Shown: one piece after another, positions 29,320-35,881 of the stretch
How the letters are laid out: every line of letters starts with the position of its first letter
Numbering within the stretch: position 1 is the first letter of the stretch
Source of the DNA: Cellulomonas biazotea
GTDB lineage: Bacteria > Actinomycetota > Actinomycetes > Actinomycetales > Cellulomonadaceae
Reading direction: 5' to 3'
Length of the DNA: 35,881 bases
NCBI RefSeq assembly: GCF_004306155.1
Contig: NZ_BIMR01000021.1
Coordinates: 1-35,881 of the forward strand
Notes under the pieces: generated by a model
What the model was told of the DNA's origin: nothing
Database searches by the model: none
Seen by the model: the letters and a program-made list of their open reading frames with translations, nothing else
Translations under genes and position numbers: made by a program

Positions 29320-29709
29320 TCACTTGAGGGTGACCGTGGCGCCGGCGCCCTCGAGCTGCGCCTTGGCCTTCTCGGCGGCCTCCTTGTTGACACCCTCCAG
29401 GACGGCCTTGGGGGCCTCGTCCACCAGGTCCTTGGCCTCCTTGAGACCGAGGGACGTGAGGGCGCGCACCTCCTTGATGACCTGGATCTTCTTGTCGCCG
29501 GCGGCCTCGAGGACGACGTCGAACGAGTCCTTCTCCTCCTCGGCCTCGACCTCGGCGCCCGCGCCACCGGCGGCGGGGGCCGCGACGGCGACGGGAGCGG
29601 CGGCGGTGACCTCGAAGACGTCCTCGAACGCCTTCACGAACTCGGAGAGCTCGATGAGGGTGAGGCCCTTGAACTGCTCGATGAGCTCGTCGGTGCTGAG
29701 CTTCGCCAT
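29320..29709 (-). CDS. rplL: 50S ribosomal protein L7/L12
   Basis: L7/L12 forms the multicopy stalk that recruits and activates translational GTPases. The 129-residue protein has the N-terminal dimerisation helices ([20 protein letters not shown]), an Ala/Pro/Gly-rich flexible hinge (about 36-60), and the factor-binding C-terminal domain ([34 protein letters not shown]). It lies 102 bases after rplJ. Normal length. Confidence 0.98.
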
Positions 29710-29811
29710 GATCGGCGTTCCTTTCGTACGGTGCCCGGTCGGCCACGGTGGCCGCCGAAGCAGATGTGGGGGTGTGCGCGTCGGCTCACCGTCCCGGCTG
29801 TGCCGGCACGG

Positions 29812-30342
29812 TCAGGCGGCAGCGCCTTCCGACTCCTGCTTCTGACGCAGGGCATCGATGACACGGGCGGCCTGGGCGGTGTTCGCGGTGAAGACGTAGG
29901 CAGCCTGGTAGAGCTTGGCCTTCATCGCACCGGCCGCCTTGGCCAGGAGCACCTCGCGGGACTCGAGGTCCGCGAGCTTGGTGACCTCCGCGGCGGTCAG
30001 GGTGCGCCCGTCGAGGACACCACCCTTGATGACCAGCGCGGGGTTCGCCTTGGCGAAGTCACGCAGACCCTTCGCGGCCTCGACCGGGTCGCCGGTGACG
30101 AAGGCGATCGCCGACGGGCCCGCGAGCGCGTCGTCGAGGCCAGTCAGACCGGCGTCCTTGGCCGCGATCGCGGTCAGCGTGTTCTTCACCACGGCGTAGG
30201 TAGCGTTACCGCCGAGCGCCTTGCGCAGCGTCTTGAGCTGCGCGACGGTGAGCCCGCGGTACTCGGTCAGCACGGCCGCGTTCGACTCACGGAACCGGTC
30301 CGTGAGCTCTGCGACAGCGGCTGCCTTGTCCGGCCTCGCCAT
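29812..30342 (-). CDS. rplJ: 50S ribosomal protein L10
   Basis: L10 anchors the L7/L12 dimers to the stalk base. The 176-residue protein begins [20 protein letters not shown], has [20 protein letters not shown] and a C-terminal helical tail ([19 protein letters not shown]) that binds L12 dimers. ATG 30342 follows GGAAGGATTGCC. The L10-L12 complex binds its own leader in several bacteria; the structured leader upstream is consistent with such control. Confidence 0.97.
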
Positions 30343-30392
30343 GGCAATCCTTCCGATGGTGGTGCCACCGGTCTCCGCCCCGGAAACGGCAA

Positions 30393-30416
30393 GAGCCCCG
30401 CGCAGGCGCGGGGCTC
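30393..30416 (-). promoter_or_regulatory. Hairpin in the rplJ leader (candidate L10 leader or attenuator)
   Basis: A perfect 11-bp stem GAGCCCCGCGC/GCGCGGGGCTC with a 2-nt central loop lies 51 bases upstream of the rplJ ATG. On the minus strand it is followed by TTGCCGTTTCC, so it could terminate. It is downstream of the candidate promoter at 30542-30570, in a leader of about 190 nt, where L10(L12)4-type autoregulation is known in other bacteria. Function is inferred from position. Confidence 0.55.
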
Positions 30417-30541
30417 GACGTCGGGACTCGGCTGAACCGGTCCGTCCGGGAACTCTCACCTGCGCTGGCCTCCGCTGCTGCGGGACTTCGGTCGGGATCG
30501 CTGAGCGCGACACCGACGACCGGCGGTCTTGGGCGTCGACC

Positions 30542-30570
30542 AGAGTACGTGAACGTCTAGTCATGACCAA
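30542..30570 (-). promoter_or_regulatory. Promoter of rplJ-rplL
   Basis: On the minus strand TTGGTC (30565-30570) and TACTCT (30542-30547) are separated by 17 bases. The predicted start is near 30535, about 190 bases before rplJ. It sits between the CHAT-gene terminator and the leader hairpin, exactly where an rplJ promoter is needed. Confidence 0.55.
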
Positions 30571-30577
30571 ATCGGGT

Positions 30578-30601
30578 CCCGCCCGACGGCAGACGGGCGG
30601 G
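30578..30601 (-). terminator. Terminator hairpin after the CHAT gene
   Basis: CCCGCCCG (30578-30585) pairs with CGGGCGGG (30594-30601) with an 8-nt loop. It starts 10 bases after the CHAT stop and on the minus strand is followed by ACCCGATTTGG. It would insulate rplJ from the upstream operon. The stem is short and the U-tract is weak. Confidence 0.55.
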
Positions 30602-30611
30602 CGGGCCGTCG

Positions 30612-33224
30612 TCAGACCGGTGCGCCGAAGCACATGAGCGGCGCGACGACGCCCGTGCGGCGCGCGTCCTCCGCCATCGCCGTCGCGACCGCCTGCGCCA
30701 CCGGGTCGCCCTCGCGCAGCAGCGCGTGCATCCGCGTCATGACCCGCATCGCCGTCTCGTCGGGGATCGGGGCGATCGCCGCGACCACGCAGCCCACGCC
30801 CCGCCGCAGCAGGACGCTCGCCATGCCGAGCGCCTCACCGCCCGCCCGGACGCTCGCCCGGCCCACCTCGCACGACGACAGCACCACGAGGTCCGGCGTC
30901 TGCGAGCCCGCGTCGAGCTCGTGCGCGAACAGCGGGCCGTCCGCCATGCGCAGCGAGGAGAACAGCGGGTTGTCGGGCTCGTGCCGACCGTGCGCCGCCA
31001 GGTGCACGAGCCCCGGGGACCCCAGCACCTCGATCGTGCGCGCGACGGTGGCGTCGTCGGCCACCAGCACCTCGCCGCCCGACCACAGCGACCCCACCTC
31101 ACGCACCTCGTCGTCCGCGTGCCGCAGCCCCGGGCCCGCGGCCGCGGTCACCCGCTCCGGGTGCGCCGGCGCCGTCCCCGCGTACCGCACCCAGTGGTGG
31201 ACCGACGGCGCGACCACCGTGGGGCGTCCGGCACGGGGCGCGAGCATCGACCACGGCAGCGCCGCCAGCCAGCCCGTGGCGACGACGACCAGCTCGCCCG
31301 GCACCTCCACCAGGGGCGCCAGGCGCGACTCCAGCGCCGCCGTGCCGTGCGCCAGCGAGCGGTGCGCGACCTCCCGCAGCTCGGCGGGGACCAGCGGGTT
31401 CGCCGTCACCTCGAGGTCCGCGTGCACGCGCCGCACGACCTCCGCGACGTCCGCCGCGCGACCGAGACGGTGCAGCGCCATGCCGTGCGCGGACGCCGCG
31501 ACCGCGAGCAGCTCGCCGCGGTGCACGCCGATGTCGACGAGGACCGAACCCGGCCGCTCCGCCAGCACCCGCCGCACGTCGGCCGCCCGCCCCGGGCGGT
31601 CGTCGCCCGCCTGACCGCGCTCGTGCCACGACCGCGCGAGGATCTCGTGCTTGAGCCGCTGCGCCTCCCGCACCGCCTTCGCCCGCACCGGGTCCGCGCT
31701 CGCCCGACCGATCACGCCCCGGCTGTCGTCGATGAGTCGGCGCAGCTGCGACAGCAGGGCCGCGGAGTCCGGGTCGCTCGGCGGGCTGACCCGCGGGGTC
31801 CCGCCGATCACCGCGCGCACCCGCTCCCCCGCGTCGAGCACGGCCGTCGGACGACCCGTCGCGAGCGCGAGCTCGACGTCCAGGGTCGCCAGGGCACGCC
31901 CGTGCACCGCCCCCGCCGTCCGCAGGTCGAGCGACCCGAACCGCGACCGGTGCAGCGCCAGGTCACGCTGCCCCGCGTGCACGAAGCGGGCCGCCCGCGC
32001 GCGGTCGCCCGCCGCGAGCGCGAGCTTCGCCCGGATCCAGCGCCCGTGCAGGCGCACCGCGATCGGGTCGCTCCCCCGCACCGTCCCCAGCTGCTCGAGC
32101 AGACCGTCCGGGTCGTCCAGCGCACCCCGCGCCAGGTCCGACTCGATGCGCACGTACGCCGCGCCGACCTCCCAGGCCGTCCGGCCCGTCGCCCGGCACA
32201 TCGCCTCCAGCCGGCCGGCACGGCGCGACAGGCCCGCCCACAGGGTTCGTGTCCGGGGGTCGTCCTGCCGGGCCTGCGCGTACGCGACCGCGTCGACCTG
32301 CAGCCCGAGCAGCGCCGCGCGCACGACCCACGCGTCCTCCCGTCGTCGCCGGAACCGTCGCGCCGCGGACGCCGCGAACCGGCCCGCCGCCGCGACGTCC
32401 CCGCGCAGCAGCGCGCACTCCGCCCGGGCGAGCTCGCACTCCGCGACGTCCCGGACCCGGCGGTGCTGCTCGAACAGCTCCGCCGCCTCCGCGAGCGTCT
32501 GGTCCGCCACCCCGACCAGACCCGCCTCCAGCAGCACCCGCGCGCGGTCCATCAGCGCCGTCGGCCGCGACGGACCCGGCAGGATGCGCGCCGCCGCCTC
32601 CATCCGGGCCAGCGCCTCCGGCAGGTCGCCCGCCACGAAGTCCAGGTAGCCGAGGTTGTGCTCCGCCTTGAACGTCAGCAGCTCGAACCCTGCCCGGCGG
32701 GCCCGCCGGGCGCACTCCGCGTAGTCGGCGCGCGACAGCGCCACGTGATGCATGTCCGTGTGCAGCACGCCCCGGTTGAGCAGCACCCGGCAGGCGTCGA
32801 TCGGGTCGGCGTCGTCGATCGACGCGACCGCCTCGTCGAGCCAGTGCAGCGCCTCGTGCTGGCGGCCCGCCCGCAGAGCCAGAAGACCACGCAGGCCCGC
32901 GACCGCCGGCGGCAGACCCGACCAGCCCGCCGACGGGTCCTGCTCGTGCTCGACGAGCATCGCGTCGAGCTCGTCGAGCGCCGCACCCGGCACCCCGCGC
33001 GTCTCGAAGTCGGCCTTCGCGAGCTCCACGAGCGCCCGCGCACGCAGCCGCGCCACGTCACGCGACGCCGGCAGCGCCTCCAGGTCGTGCAGCAGAGGAC
33101 GCAGCCGACGTCGCGCACGCGTGGGACGCCCCTCGGCGTTCTCCGTCTCCGCCCGTGCGAGCGCGTCCGCGAGGACGTCGACTCCGGGCGGTCCGGCCGC
33201 CGCCGGGCCGCCCAGGTCCGACAT
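30612..33224 (-). CDS. TPR-CHAT domain protein (caspase-like protease)
   Basis: An 870-residue cytosolic protein. The N-terminal two thirds is Ala/Leu/Arg-rich helical repeats of TPR type (for example [20 protein letters not shown] and [20 protein letters not shown]), with no signal peptide or membrane segment. The C-terminal part, roughly from residue 590, is a CHAT domain, a caspase-like peptidase. The presumed catalytic pair is visible: H745 in [18 protein letters not shown] and C785 in [13 protein letters not shown], followed by [16 protein letters not shown]. Both are intact, so an active cysteine protease is likely. Its ATG is five bases after the stop of the preceding gene, so it is the third gene of a coupled operon with an ECF sigma factor. 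CHAT proteins act in programmed cell death, heterocyst control and type III-E CRISPR (Craspase); which role applies here is unknown. Confidence 0.9.
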
Positions 33225-33229
33225 CTGCG

Positions 33230-33733
33230 CTAGAGCTCGATCTGCGGGGTGACGATCGGCACCTGCGGGTCCGACGGGCGACGCAGCACCAGCCGCGCCG
33301 GGCCGCGCTCGACCTCCGAGAACGAGAAGCGTCCGTCGACGTCCGACGTCACCGTCGTCACGTCGCCCGACTGGTGCAGCTCGACCGTGAGCTCGCCGGC
33401 CGGGGCCGCCCAGCCGTCGACGCGCACGCGTCCCGCCTCCGGGTGGACCGAGATCATCACGGTGAGCACGTCCGTCGTGAACGTGATCGTGCCGGCCTCG
33501 ATGCTCGTCTCGTCCGCCCGCACCGCGAGCGCGGGCTCGCCCACGAGGTGCAGCTCCGCGAGCTCGGCGTGCAGCGCCTCGATCGTCAGCGCCATGCCGA
33601 TCCGGTCCACCAGCCCCGACGGGACCGGGTCGGACGTGTCCACCAGCGACGCCAGCCGCGTGAGGATCTCGAGGTCGGCGACGTCCAGCGAGCCGGACGC
33701 CACCAGGGCCAGGGTGCTCTCGTCGGTGCTCAT
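33230..33733 (-). CDS. Unrecognised 167-residue protein between ECF sigma factor and CHAT gene
   Basis: I do not recognise the family with certainty. The first 65 residues are predicted helical (VADLEILTRLASLVDTSDPV, then GLVDRIGMALTIEALHAELA). The rest is beta-rich: SIEAGTITFTTDVLTVMISV, VRVDGWAAPAGELTVELHQ, and TTVTSDVDGRFSFSEVERGP followed by ARLVLRR. The last block resembles carboxypeptidase regulatory-like or transthyretin-like beta-sandwich domains. There is no signal peptide, no membrane helix and no HxxxCxxC zinc motif of classical ZAS anti-sigma factors. ATG 33733 overlaps the sigma-factor stop (ATGA), and CHAT starts five bases after its end. The position suggests a soluble sigma regulator or an adaptor between sigma factor and protease. 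That role is inference. Confidence 0.75.
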   Translation of the reverse strand: MSTDESTLALVASGSLDVADLEILTRLASLVDTSDPVPSGLVDRIGMALTIEALHAELAELHLVGEPALAVRADETSIEAGTITFTTDVLTVMISVHPEAGRVRVDGWAAPAGELTVELHQSGDVTTVTSDVDGRFSFSEVERGPARLVLRRPSDPQVPIVTPQIEL

Positions 33734-34362
33734 GACACGCTCCAGGCGGGGTCGTTGGAGAGGGCGAGGCGGAGCTTCGCGAGGCACCGGCCGCGCGTCG
33801 GTCCGATGCTGCCCACCGGCATGCCCAGCGCCCGGGAGACGACCGTGTAGTCGGGGCGGTCGACGAGCGCCACCAGACCCAGCAGCCGACGGCACCGGTC
33901 CGGCAGCGTCGCCACGTGCTCCCAGAGCACCCGGTCCCGCTCGGACCGGACCGCGACGGTGTCCGGACGATCCTCCGCCGGAGCCGACAGCCAGTCCGTC
34001 ACGTGCTCGTCCTGCTCGTGCCGGACCAGGTCGTCGCGGGTACGACGCACCGCCCGCCACGCCGCACGCTTGGCCGTCACGAGCATCCACTGCAGCGTCG
34101 CGCGCGGGTCCCGGATCGACTCGATGTCCCGCACCAGCGTCAGCCACACGTTCTGCACGATGTCCTGCGCCTGCTCCGCGTCCACGCCCTGGGCGCGGAC
34201 CGTGTGCCACAGCAACGGCGTCATCACCTGCACGAGAGAGGCGAGCGGCGCCCGGTCCCCGTCGCGGTACGCGACGACGGCACGGGCGGCGTGGTCGGCC
34301 AGCCCCTCTCCCTGGTCGCGGAGCGCGGCGTCAACCGGCCCCACCAGGTCATCACTCATCAT
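33730..34362 (-). CDS. ECF-type sigma-70 family sigma factor
   Basis: The 210-residue product has a sigma region 2 (about 36-108), with DAEQAQDIVQNVWLTLVRDI and ATLQWMLVTAKRAAWRAVRR, and a region 4 (about 143-200) with a helix-turn-helix ending SRALGMPVGSIGPTRGRCLA. Regions 1 and 3 are missing, as in ECF sigma factors. It would direct RNA polymerase to a small regulon, possibly including its own operon and the divergent protease gene. Two adjacent ATGs (34362, 34359) follow GAGGGG. Longer in-frame starts extend into the control region and lack support. First gene of the CHAT operon; its stop overlaps the next ATG by four bases. Confidence 0.9.
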   Translation of the reverse strand: MMSDDLVGPVDAALRDQGEGLADHAARAVVAYRDGDRAPLASLVQVMTPLLWHTVRAQGVDAEQAQDIVQNVWLTLVRDIESIRDPRATLQWMLVTAKRAAWRAVRRTRDDLVRHEQDEHVTDWLSAPAEDRPDTVAVRSERDRVLWEHVATLPDRCRRLLGLVALVDRPDYTVVSRALGMPVGSIGPTRGRCLAKLRLALSNDPAWSVS

Positions 34363-34717
34363 GGACCCCTCACAGGCTGGCCTCGTCGGGCGGCCGCGCC
34401 CCTGACACAGTAGGGCGGCCCGGACAACCCCTACAAGGAGGACACGGACACGCGACCGACTGGCGTGCGACGGCCCGAGACCGGACCACCCGCGCGCCCG
34501 CGGGCGCAGTCCCCCGTGCTGGGGTCGACGAGCAGGAGCGGACCGGCCCGCCCCAGATACGTCCCACCGAAGATTTCTCGTCCGGACGTGTATCTGGACG
34601 CCCGTCACCCGCTCCTCGCCAGCACCCGCCCGACCTCCCCCGGTCCGGCACGCGCCGCACCGCCGGCGCTGGTCAGGGCGGCACCGTGGTTCTCGACCAT
34701 CTGAGGAGACGCACGAC
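34363..34717. promoter_or_regulatory. Divergent control region between sigma factor and protease genes
   Basis: These 355 bases contain no supported gene and must carry promoters in both directions. For the minus strand, TTGTAG and TACTGT with an 18-base spacer are present near 34409-34438 but are only a weak candidate. For the plus strand, AGGAG directly precedes the protease ATG; a promoter was not identified with confidence. The most striking element is the inverted repeat at 34553-34597. Confidence 0.5.
34553..34597. repeat. Imperfect inverted repeat, candidate operator
   Basis: CCAGATACGTCC (34553-34564) is mirrored by GGACGTGTATCTGG (34584-34597): the 12 bases match exactly except for a GT insertion in the right arm. 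The 19-base spacer contains the AT-rich GAAGATTTCTCG. It lies 120 bases before the protease start and about 190 bases from the sigma-factor start. It could be an operator or two opposed ECF promoter elements. Only the symmetry is seen. Confidence 0.55.
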
Positions 34718-35881
34718 ATGACCGAGCAGGACAGCGCCCCCGAGCCTCTCAGCCGGGAGCAGATCCGCCCGACCAAGCGCGCCCACGAGGACGGGCTCAT
34801 CGCCCGCCCCGGGGTCGTGGGTGTCGACATCGGCGAGAAGTGGTCCGACGGGCAGCCCACCGGACGGCAGGCGATCGTCGTCCACGTCACCCGCAAGCTC
34901 GACGCGGGCGACCTCTCCGACGACCAGCGCATCCCCGCCACGATCGACGGCGTCCCCACCGACGTCGTGGAGCACCGCGTCGTCCTGCACCACGAGGCCA
35001 CCCACCCCGGGATCCCCACCGCCGAGGACGTCACCGCCCTCATGCGCGGCCGCGTCCGGCCCCTCGCCGGCGGCGTCAGCATCGGCCCCGTCGACCCCGT
35101 CACCATCCAGGGCGAGTCGTCCGCCGAGCTGCGCTCCGTCAACGGCACCCTCGGGGTCGTCGTCACCGAGCGGCACACCGGGCGTGCCCTGGCGCTCACC
35201 AACTGGCACGTCGCCGCCGGCGACGGGCTCGAGGACGTCGGCAGCCAGTGGGTCCAGCCCGCGCGCGCCGACGGCGCACGCCCCGGCGACCAGATCGGCC
35301 AGCTCGTCCGCGGCACGCTCACCGACCGGATCGACGCCGCCGTCGTCGCCCTCGCACCCGGCGCCCGCTGGGTCCCGGGGATCGTCGGCATCGGTGCCGT
35401 CACCGGCTCCGCGAAGGCCGTCGCCGGGTCCGTCGTGCGCAAGCACGGCCGCACCACCGGCCTGCGGACCGGCCGCGTCGTGTCCACCGACTTCACGACG
35501 TCCGTCGACTTCGGCCCCGGCATCGGCTGGCGCACCCTGCGCGACCAGCTCCGCGTCGAGCCCGAGCCCGGGCAGACGTCGTTCTCCGCCGGCGGCGACT
35601 CCGGGTCGGCCGTCGTCGACGAGGACGGCAAGGTCGTCGGCCTGCTGTGGGCAGGCGAGCACGACGGCTCCTACTCCGTCGCCAACCCGATCGACGCCGT
35701 GCTCGGCACGCTGGGCGTCGACGTCGCGACCCCCGCGTCCGTCCGGGCCCGCCGCGCCGCGCTCGCGCGGCAGGCCGCGCAGGCCCAGGCGTCGCGGCTG
35801 CAGGGCAGCGGAGGCGGGCTCTTCCCGCCCGTGGCCGCGGCCTACCGGGGACGTCGCCGGCGGCGGCCCGCGGGTCCGGCG
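34718..35881 (+). CDS. Trypsin-like serine protease, cytosolic, 3' end outside the window
   Basis: Open for 388 codons to the window edge without a stop. The chymotrypsin-fold triad is visible: H164 in ALTNWHVAAG, D206 in TDRIDAAVVAL, and S295 in SAGGDSGSAVV followed by VVGLLWAG. The region before it (about 20-110, including RPGVVGVDIGEKWSDGQPTG and AIVVHVTRKL) resembles the N-terminal part of Nal1-like and related bacterial trypsin-like peptidases. There is no signal peptide or membrane helix, so it should act in the cytosol, unlike most bacterial trypsins. After about residue 345 the sequence is low-complexity Ala/Gln/Arg, ending in an Arg-rich YRGRRRRRPAGPA at the edge. ATG 34718 has GAGGAG upstream. 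It is the only plus-strand gene in the window and shares its upstream region with the ECF sigma factor of the CHAT operon. Confidence 0.88.
   Translation, partial: MTEQDSAPEPLSREQIRPTKRAHEDGLIARPGVVGVDIGEKWSDGQPTGRQAIVVHVTRKLDAGDLSDDQRIPATIDGVPTDVVEHRVVLHHEATHPGIPTAEDVTALMRGRVRPLAGGVSIGPVDPVTIQGESSAELRSVNGTLGVVVTERHTGRALALTNWHVAAGDGLEDVGSQWVQPARADGARPGDQIGQLVRGTLTDRIDAAVVALAPGARWVPGIVGIGAVTGSAKAVAGSVVRKHGRTTGLRTGRVVSTDFTTSVDFGPGIGWRTLRDQLRVEPEPGQTSFSAGGDSGSAVVDEDGKVVGLLWAGEHDGSYSVANPIDAVLGTLGVDVATPASVRARRAALARQAAQAQASRLQGSGGGLFPPVAAAYRGRRRRRPAGPA

Follow-up and report, generated by a model that had tools for sequence, protein, structure and literature searches.

A four-part protease–sigma factor module beside the ribosomal genes of Cellulomonas biazotea, a candidate CRISPR-free proteolytic switch

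The soil bacterium Cellulomonas biazotea carries, adjoining its ribosome genes, a four-part module composed of a caspase/separase-like CHAT protease, an ECF sigma factor, a small partner protein and a trypsin. Analysis of the window (the whole 35,881-nt contig) confirmed that all four genes are genuine and intact and that they form a single unit. From their sequences we propose, with a probability of roughly 0.55, that the module is a self-contained, Craspase-like proteolytic switch independent of CRISPR, in which the CHAT protease would cut the partner, the sigma factor would be freed and the proteases would be induced.

The gene set and its conservation

The positions that a preliminary description had assigned to the CHAT, sigma, partner and trypsin genes all hold in the gene map and Pfam search (Table 1), as do the 4-nt overlap of the sigma and partner genes (33730–33733) and the 5-nt gap between the partner and CHAT genes (33225–33229). 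The HMM searches that it had proposed for CHAT, sigma-70 region 2 and Trypsin_2 gave matches for each, and the catalytic residues that it had called intact are present: H745 and C785 are conserved in 111 of 111 aligned CHAT homologues, and H164, D206 and S295 in all 28 aligned trypsins. Because the window is a whole contig, the trypsin gene lacks its 3′ end; nine uncut orthologues encode 575–677 residues. The sigma factor, for which a second gene calling picked an alternative GTG start at 34344, has sigma2 and sigma4 regions and no long extension, a feature of the ECF54 group.

Table 1. Features of the module and its flank in the window
Feature	Position	Strand	Details
TPR–CHAT protease, separase/Csx29-like predicted fold	30612–33224	−	870 aa; PF12770, E = 2.7e-25
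CHAT residue codons	H745 30990–30992; C785 30870–30872; D822 30759–30761	−	
Partner (adaptor), candidate anti-sigma	33230–33733	−	167 aa; R72 codon 33518–33520
ECF sigma factor	33730–34362	−	210 aa; Sigma70_r2, E = 1.1e-6; TIGR02937 above cut-off; alignment to relatives
Promoter-like site GTATCTG-N15-CTCCT facing sigma operon	34534–34560	−	
Promoter-like site GTATCTG-N15-CTCCT facing trypsin gene	34590–34616	+	
NAL1-like trypsin (Trypsin_2)	34718–35881	+	Trypsin_2, E = 6.8e-8; cut by contig end
Trypsin catalytic codons	H164 35207–35209; D206 35333–35335; S295 35600–35602	+	
rplL and rplJ, flank of module	29320–30342	−	rplA–rplJ interval in orthologues

Gene neighbourhoods were compared for 80 named sigma relatives, the best 80 of 525. 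The partner, of about 160 residues, lies directly downstream of sigma in 79 of these loci, and genes for a TPR–CHAT protease and for a serine protease are found near sigma in 73 and 75 loci, respectively; partner and sigma also adjoin in seven loci with no protease near. In 112 of 135 sigma/partner pairs, duplicates included, the stop and start codons could overlap by 4 nt. In an order sample of 119 genomes, all 29 CHAT-positive genomes fell among the 34 sigma-positive ones (P = 6.6e-23); neither of the outcomes that the preliminary description had named as evidence against the grouping occurred. Where a partner has no CHAT gene nearby, the genome holds a CHAT homologue elsewhere (10 of 10), with sigma beside the partner in eight. 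Co-occurrence in the 119-genome sample and these scattered loci led us to reject a chance neighbourhood. Exceptions to the pairing comprise partners with no adjoining sigma gene (L058, L064, L232 and the second partner of the tandem loci L055, L106 and L109) and sigma relatives with no detected partner (L225–L229 and L231; also L120, at a contig end).

The serine protease varies in type. In relatives it is either an S8 subtilase encoded within the operon or a NAL1-like trypsin read divergently, and some have both; the trypsin is found in Cellulomonas, including the window, the subtilase in most relatives, and the two together in three Knoellia/Nocardioides loci. The subtilase also occurs in a paralogous cassette of C. 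biazotea itself (L035:862–2559), not in that of the window. The trypsin had been taken as a fixed part of the system; the relatives' loci show instead that either of two serine proteases can fill this place.

Promoter-like elements at the heads of transcription units

A promoter-like element, GTATC(A/T)G-N15/16-CTCCT, lies upstream of these units. The control region that the sigma operon and the trypsin gene had been said to share contains two divergent copies, one towards each, with distances to the annotated starts of some 100 and 170 nt, which bears out the view of the genes as a unit under a common element; none of 100 shuffles of the region gave two sites (mean 0.02). GTATC(A/T) was present in sense orientation in 97 of 113 non-duplicate upstream windows, and CTCCT followed, with at most one mismatch and at an offset of 22 or 23, in 79 of 90 aligned sites. 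The element heads 27 of 28 trypsin, 56 of 70 sigma and 46 of 67 S8 units, whereas it was found at only 3 of 27 separate CHAT units and at 21 of 1,109 control genes; it is absent from all six partnerless sigma loci (L225–L229, L231). In genus g18, whose CHAT gene sits in a different ribosomal cluster from sigma, two of three genomes keep the CHAT site (L214, L216), and no site was found beside CHAT in G076. Exact sites in both divergent directions occur in 14 of 60 Cellulomonas genomes, and the three Knoellia/Nocardioides loci with both serine proteases give matrix matches in both directions, that on the trypsin side of L142 being weak (score 8.9).

Exact sites outside divergent pairs numbered 30 in the 19 Cellulomonas genomes with an orthologue and 37 in the 41 without, a few of the latter belonging to other cassette subtypes; a reversed-pattern control gave seven in all 60. 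These counts weakly suggest that there may be a wide regulon in Cellulomonas. A search of 20 genomes returned 67 sites (reversed control, two). Among the 42 inspected, 29 have a gene within 400 nt downstream, two of these being cassette genes. Pfam scanning of 26 of the other 27 genes gave three peptidase matches (astacin, trypsin and M15); the 27th (L272) has a BLAST match to L179. We do not claim from these matches that proteases are enriched outside the cassettes. Several putative targets recur across genomes, which is suggestive only: astacin (G008, G076), an AMIN-like protein (C. biazotea itself, G422), DUF6345 (G393, G422), a DUF6323-like protein (G076, G422), a MIR protein (C. biazotea, G008, G020) and subtilase (G052, G076). 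Sites at GyrB, P450, SIR2 and other genes may be due to chance. Besides trypsin and subtilase, the proteases behind the element include astacin, thermolysin, a zinc carboxypeptidase and a papain-like protein in some genomes.

A candidate proteolytic switch and its alternatives

The AF2 model of the CHAT protein (pLDDT 90.3, pTM 0.86) is predicted to fold like separase and Csx29. Its top match was separase (VIA Z 28.7, rmsd 3.0, 306 aligned residues), with a VIA Z of 28.3 to Csx29 and of 23.5–28.3 to the Csx29/Craspase chains among the matches listed. D822, invariant in 44 aligned sequences, aligns with a Ser in Csx29 (alignment counted by hand). Searched by sequence against the PDB, the CHAT domain matched DdvA best (8rot/8rw5; E = 2.2e-12), and a Pfam search found no anti-sigma domain in the CHAT protein. 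The partner is modelled as helices (residues 3–64), a low-confidence linker and a C-terminal Ig-like sandwich (82–151). R72, in that linker, is its most conserved basic residue (123 of 124 sequences; the next, R135, 111 of 124). Pfam gave a sub-threshold CarboxypepD_reg match at residues 101–153 and neither a peptidase nor a known anti-sigma domain; a fold search matched generic Ig-like folds only, and a sequence search gave no match to a Csx30 chain up to E = 10.

The sigma factor would be made together with its partner, which most likely keeps it inactive. The TPR array of the CHAT protein would probably detect a signal and so activate the separase-like protease. This protease would then cleave the flexible linker of the partner, the most likely site being just after the near-invariant Arg72. 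The freed sigma factor would then read the observed promoter pattern and raise its own operon, which includes CHAT in the window, together with the divergent trypsin. The induced effector or amplifier could be the serine protease, which is a trypsin in Cellulomonas and a subtilase in most relatives. This reading is supported by the conservation of the gene set, its co-occurrence even when scattered, the element at unit heads, the likeness of CHAT to separase, the conserved R72, the invariant D822 and the Craspase precedent. Against it stand the partners and sigma factors that occur without each other, the lack of a Csx30 match, the scarcity of the element at separate CHAT units, the site-to-start distances and the exact sites that are also common in Cellulomonas genomes without an orthologue. 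Conservation of R72 may also reflect binding rather than cutting.

Another possibility is that the trypsin or subtilase cuts the partner, with CHAT acting as a downstream killer or on the serine protease precursor: trypsins favour Arg, and the promoter heads serine protease units much more frequently than separate CHAT units. We consider this quite unlikely, since R72 and CHAT are retained whereas the serine protease switches between two unrelated folds, and a sigma-controlled protease would be a poor first trigger. The proteases could instead act on the sigma factor itself and keep it low, with no anti-sigma and with the partner as a targeting or scaffold protein, as put forward for ECF54 in the accessible part of PMC8999054 (section 3.3). 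That arrangement seems unlikely in view of the near-constant adjacency of partner and sigma, and it leaves the linker Arg unexplained; moreover, the 'carboxypeptidase' of that account may be the CarboxypepD_reg-like partner.

The Ig-like domain of the partner model and the lack of an anti-sigma match would also suit a ligand-sensing sigma co-activator, with proteolysis as output only, but the conserved Arg and the link to CHAT would then go unexplained, and we regard this as improbable. That unrelated neighbours are merely held together by the ribosomal cluster is hardly credible: many copies do lie in the rplA–rplJ interval, but the same set is found at many other sites and co-occurrence persists when the genes are scattered. 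Returning to the proposed switch, a bolder form of it, which we hold to be doubtful, would be a phylum-wide, CRISPR-independent, separase-type system in which cleavage of an anti-sigma at one Arg lets sigma induce signal-peptide-free proteases for programmed self-digestion, possibly the kind of module behind the type III-E protease arm.

Comparison with known systems

Separase, the eukaryotic cohesin protease, shares with the window protein a TPR/helical N-terminal part and a caspase-like C-terminal part, but it has no sigma factor, which the window has. PADLOC models (2023 library, E 0.01) gave no match for the four window proteins, although absence from that library does not exclude a known defence system; one relative's CHAT protein gave a weak BovA match (E = 0.0024). 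EACC1/EACC2 conflict systems resemble the module in having a caspase-like protease, sometimes accompanied by genes for an ECF sigma and a TPR protein, but, as far as the available part of PMC8195603 describes them, contain EACC domains and variable sensors, none of which Pfam named in the window proteins. DdvA, deposited as a CHAT-domain protein and a transmembrane anti-sigma factor (8rot/8rw5), likewise links CHAT to sigma control; by its PDB entries its CHAT domain lies within the anti-sigma protein itself, whereas that of the window is a separate protein.

In type III-E Craspase (Csx29, Csx30, CASP-sigma), a TPR–CHAT protease cuts Csx30, an inhibitor of an ECF sigma, according to the accessible part of PMC10028731. 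The window has the same three kinds of component and, unlike Craspase, an additional serine protease. A repeat search found nothing array-like in 29500–35881 (the contig ends at 35881), and no Cas genes were recognised by eye among the ribosomal, rpo and translation genes of the 36-kb contig map; with no array beside the genes, we rejected a CRISPR reading of this interval. If the proposed switch is correct, separase-like control of sigma factors would be common across Actinomycetota independently of CRISPR, a point relevant to how Craspase arose and to caspase-like signalling in bacteria.

Among the nearest described groups is ECF54, actinobacterial ECF sigma factors for which a neighbourhood of CHAT, subtilase and 'carboxypeptidase' and control by proteolysis have been published (accessible part of PMC8999054); calling the system undescribed was therefore too strong. 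Because the window cassette carries a trypsin where the ECF54 neighbourhood has the subtilase, and was set against ECF54 by description, we call it ECF54-like only. The trypsin version, the promoter element and the candidate cut site were not found in the searchable literature, and the element, the cut site and in-trans co-occurrence were not found in the accessible ECF54 text. The small partner is proposed here as both anti-sigma and CHAT substrate, and the genomic hint from ECF54 is thereby made testable, with the inhibitor, its cut site (R72), the responding promoters and the proteases made all specified.

A conserved gene set and its genomic location

The preliminary description placed the genes for the CHAT protease, the small partner protein and the ECF sigma factor in a single minus-strand operon divergent from the trypsin gene, and both gene calls and domain matches agree with this layout. 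The trypsin gene extends past the end of the contig, all of which is covered by the window, and rplJ, rplL, rpoB and rpoC (named by eye on the gene map) lie downstream of CHAT. Among the ribosomal-cluster genes, positions 1878–2849 (−) encode a glycine-rich protein that begins with a signal-like sequence. The Cellulomonas cassette occupies the rplA–rplJ interval, as do cassettes carrying a subtilase (S8) as the serine protease (L047, L087, L088, L094, L096, L141, L144 and L222), some of them oppositely oriented. Further copies occur at other sites. Placement close to genes for translation and RNA polymerase recurs but is not obligatory.

The partner was found in 31 of 98 relatives. Of the first 20 stretches retrieved, 18 contain the full set of sigma, partner, CHAT and serine protease; the exceptions are L036, where CHAT is a fragment bordering a contig end, and L051, which has just sigma and partner. 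A sigma-profile scan matched 566 stretches, of which 525 are relatives. The best 80 of these, all actinobacterial by title, were analysed with genes assigned at E below 1e-8. In this sample, which is biased to close relatives because it comprises the best sigma matches, the partner adjoins sigma in 79 loci (the other, L120, stops at a contig edge), CHAT is found in 73 and S8 or trypsin in 75. Trypsin occurs without S8 in 16 loci, all from Cellulomonas by title, and both proteases are present in Knoellia flava, Nocardioides gansuensis and K. sinensis. More distant loci retain the set in different orders, and in L062, a relative at the phylum level only, trypsin replaces S8.

Several loci depart from these arrangements. 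L055, L106 and L109 (Salsipaludibacter albus and similar) carry two partners and two CHAT genes in tandem with a subtilase and a single sigma gene, which in L055 and L109 is preceded only by a weak GTATCAC site. In L082 (Cellulomonas), a second CHAT gene and a subtilase lie where trypsin would be. Upstream of the L143 cassette is a 513-aa gene for what may be another caspase-family protein, judging by its N-terminal sequence only.

Across 119 genomes of the order, scoring limited to the top first-look candidates detected sigma in 34 genomes, CHAT in 29 and the partner in 27. All 29 CHAT genomes also have sigma (P = 6.6e-23, a value that ignores relatedness); CHAT was not detected at threshold in five sigma genomes, and two of the 27 partner genomes have a partial partner and no sigma. 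Ten genomes have a partner and no nearby CHAT; all of them carry a CHAT homologue at another place (best E no higher than 2e-88), and sigma adjoins the partner in eight. Some loci count against a strict sigma–partner pairing: no sigma was found within 700 nt of the partner in L058, L064 and L232 or of the second partner in the tandem loci, and no partner was detected beside the sigma relatives L225–L229 and L231.

A promoter-like element ahead of cassette units

Two divergent copies of the element GTATC(A/T)G-N15/16-CTCCT lie between sigma and trypsin. GTATCTG is found on one or other strand of the divergent region in all 34 Cellulomonas sequences compared (24 after near-duplicate removal); outside this genus, GTATCAG predominates. 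Of 113 upstream windows (about 500 nt each, duplicates removed), 97 have sense-oriented GTATC(A/T). When the 90 sites located 30–300 nt upstream were aligned, CTCCT emerged at a constant spacing, exact at offset 22 in 59 and at 23 in nine, with one mismatch in seven and four, respectively, and elsewhere or worse in 11. A matrix built from 69 sites gave 249 hits, these training sites included, against 19 for a single column-shuffled matrix (3.87 Mb, both strands). Unit heads lacking a site belong largely to more distant lineages.

Cassette genes, gene orders and sites. Orders refer to the best 80 of 525 sigma relatives; unit heads to 138 loci, with non-independent orthologues and a matrix partly trained on the same loci.
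Feature	Locus or scope	Position or count
CHAT gene	window	30612..33224 (−)
Partner gene	window	33230..33733 (−)
Sigma gene	window	33730..34362 (−)
Trypsin gene	window	34718..35881 (+)
Element	window	34534..34560 (−)
Element	window	34590..34616 (+)
S8-sigma-partner-CHAT	80 loci	39
Divergent trypsin-sigma-partner-CHAT	80 loci	15, plus 1 interrupted by contig end
Sigma-partner-S8-CHAT	80 loci	11
S8 and trypsin	80 loci	3
Remaining arrangements	80 loci	11
Site at trypsin	unit heads	27/28
Site at sigma	unit heads	56/70
Site at S8	unit heads	46/67
Site at CHAT	unit heads	3/27
Site at partner	unit heads	1/5
Site at other genes (control)	same loci	21/1109
CHAT site	L214	5575, about 320 nt upstream
CHAT site	L216	5561, about 690 nt upstream
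Site before astacin gene (loose pattern only)	G076	61 nt
Site before gene of subtilase with FG-GAP repeats	G076	75 nt
Site before thermolysin gene	G076	77 nt

With spacers of 14–16, the C. biazotea genome has eight exact matches (two in the window, one before a paralogous sigma on contig C99 and five elsewhere) and none to the reversed pattern. Across the genus, a spacer of 15 gave 95 matches, spread over 40 of the 60 genomes, against seven for the reversed control, and the divergent pair stands at the cassette in 14 of the 60. We read the element as a −35/−10 pair that would be recognized by the cassette's own sigma factor; that sigma drives its own operon and trypsin is well supported.

In two genomes of one genus (G092 and G356), CHAT has its own upstream site (L214 and L216) and lies within a different ribosomal gene cluster (map to infA); the sigma–partner pairs (L085 and L217) likewise have sites. 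In a third, G076, a site accompanies sigma and partner (L051), and none was found beside CHAT, which an S8 gene adjoins. The astacin, subtilase and thermolysin of G076 showed no obvious N-terminal hydrophobic stretch on a simple scale. The loose pattern has visible background (69 matches against 27 for the control in ten genomes; nine against zero in G076 by itself), and we claim no target enrichment. Certain other predicted targets recur between genomes. In Cellulomonas phragmiteti (L150, and L053 from the same genome), a site lies 51 nt ahead of an operon encoding, in this order, an S8-vWA subtilase, a 120-aa protein, an M14-vWA carboxypeptidase, sigma, partner, S8 and CHAT; the two vWA proteases upstream of sigma lie in L150:1989-7876 and L053:9657-15544.

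GTATCA-like sites overlapping the sigma 3′ end right before the partner (L059:8720, L061:9046, L063:8155 and L089:8226) are either coincidence or a partner promoter; in L063 and L089 they coincide with G-I-S codons. The strong site at L048:11101 (+) is directed opposite to the S8 operon, and no sense-oriented called gene is close to it; a small conserved gene (MAKLSFLAGLAAGYVLGAKAG..) lies nearby on the opposite strand, as it does upstream of 14 named cassettes. Thirteen genus matches start GTATCAGACA; matches of this kind occur also in genomes without this cassette orthologue. One lies before a DoxX gene in G030 and one before an FAD-binding gene in G036.

Partner, proteases and known systems

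The predicted partner structure (pLDDT 84, pTM 0.50) has helices at residues 3–12, 18–34 and 41–64 and strands within 82–151, with confidence below 50 at 65–78; the low pTM suits two domains joined by a flexible linker. R72, within the low-confidence stretch, is conserved in 123 of 124 sequences, mostly as (G/A)-V-R-(G/S/A), and the exception (L149) has Arg adjacent to the aligned position. Arg is the preferred residue before the cleavage site of separases and metacaspases. In our reading, the partner would act as an inhibitor that CHAT may cut at R72, and the proteases would serve as effectors.

Catalytic residues are intact in CHAT (H/C, 111 of 111 aligned), trypsin (H/D/S, 28 of 28) and S8 (D in 80 of 81, H and S in all 81). 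The cassette subtilases L139:4082-5638 and L035:862-2559 carry short tandem peptide repeats (GWGDGI-type and HSTNPF-type) before the protease domain.

For ECF54, control by proteolysis without an anti-sigma factor has been proposed (PMC8999054). In the papers searched, we found neither the promoter element nor the trypsin version nor the linker Arg described; the motif may already be in print. The CHAT model (pLDDT 90.3, pTM 0.86) places the protein in its fold class by prediction, matching separase (Z 28.7, rmsd 3.0, 306 aligned) and Csx29 (8eey; Z 28.3, rmsd 8.6, 504 aligned); Rap and other TPR proteins reach about 26, so the TPR part alone also gives high Z. Sequence comparison matches the CHAT domain to the anti-sigma DdvA (E 2.2e-12), Craspase (about 5e-7) and, weakly, separase (0.014). 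D822 is invariant in the 44-sequence CHAT alignment and, by hand count, is aligned with a Ser of Csx29; it may contribute to Arg binding.
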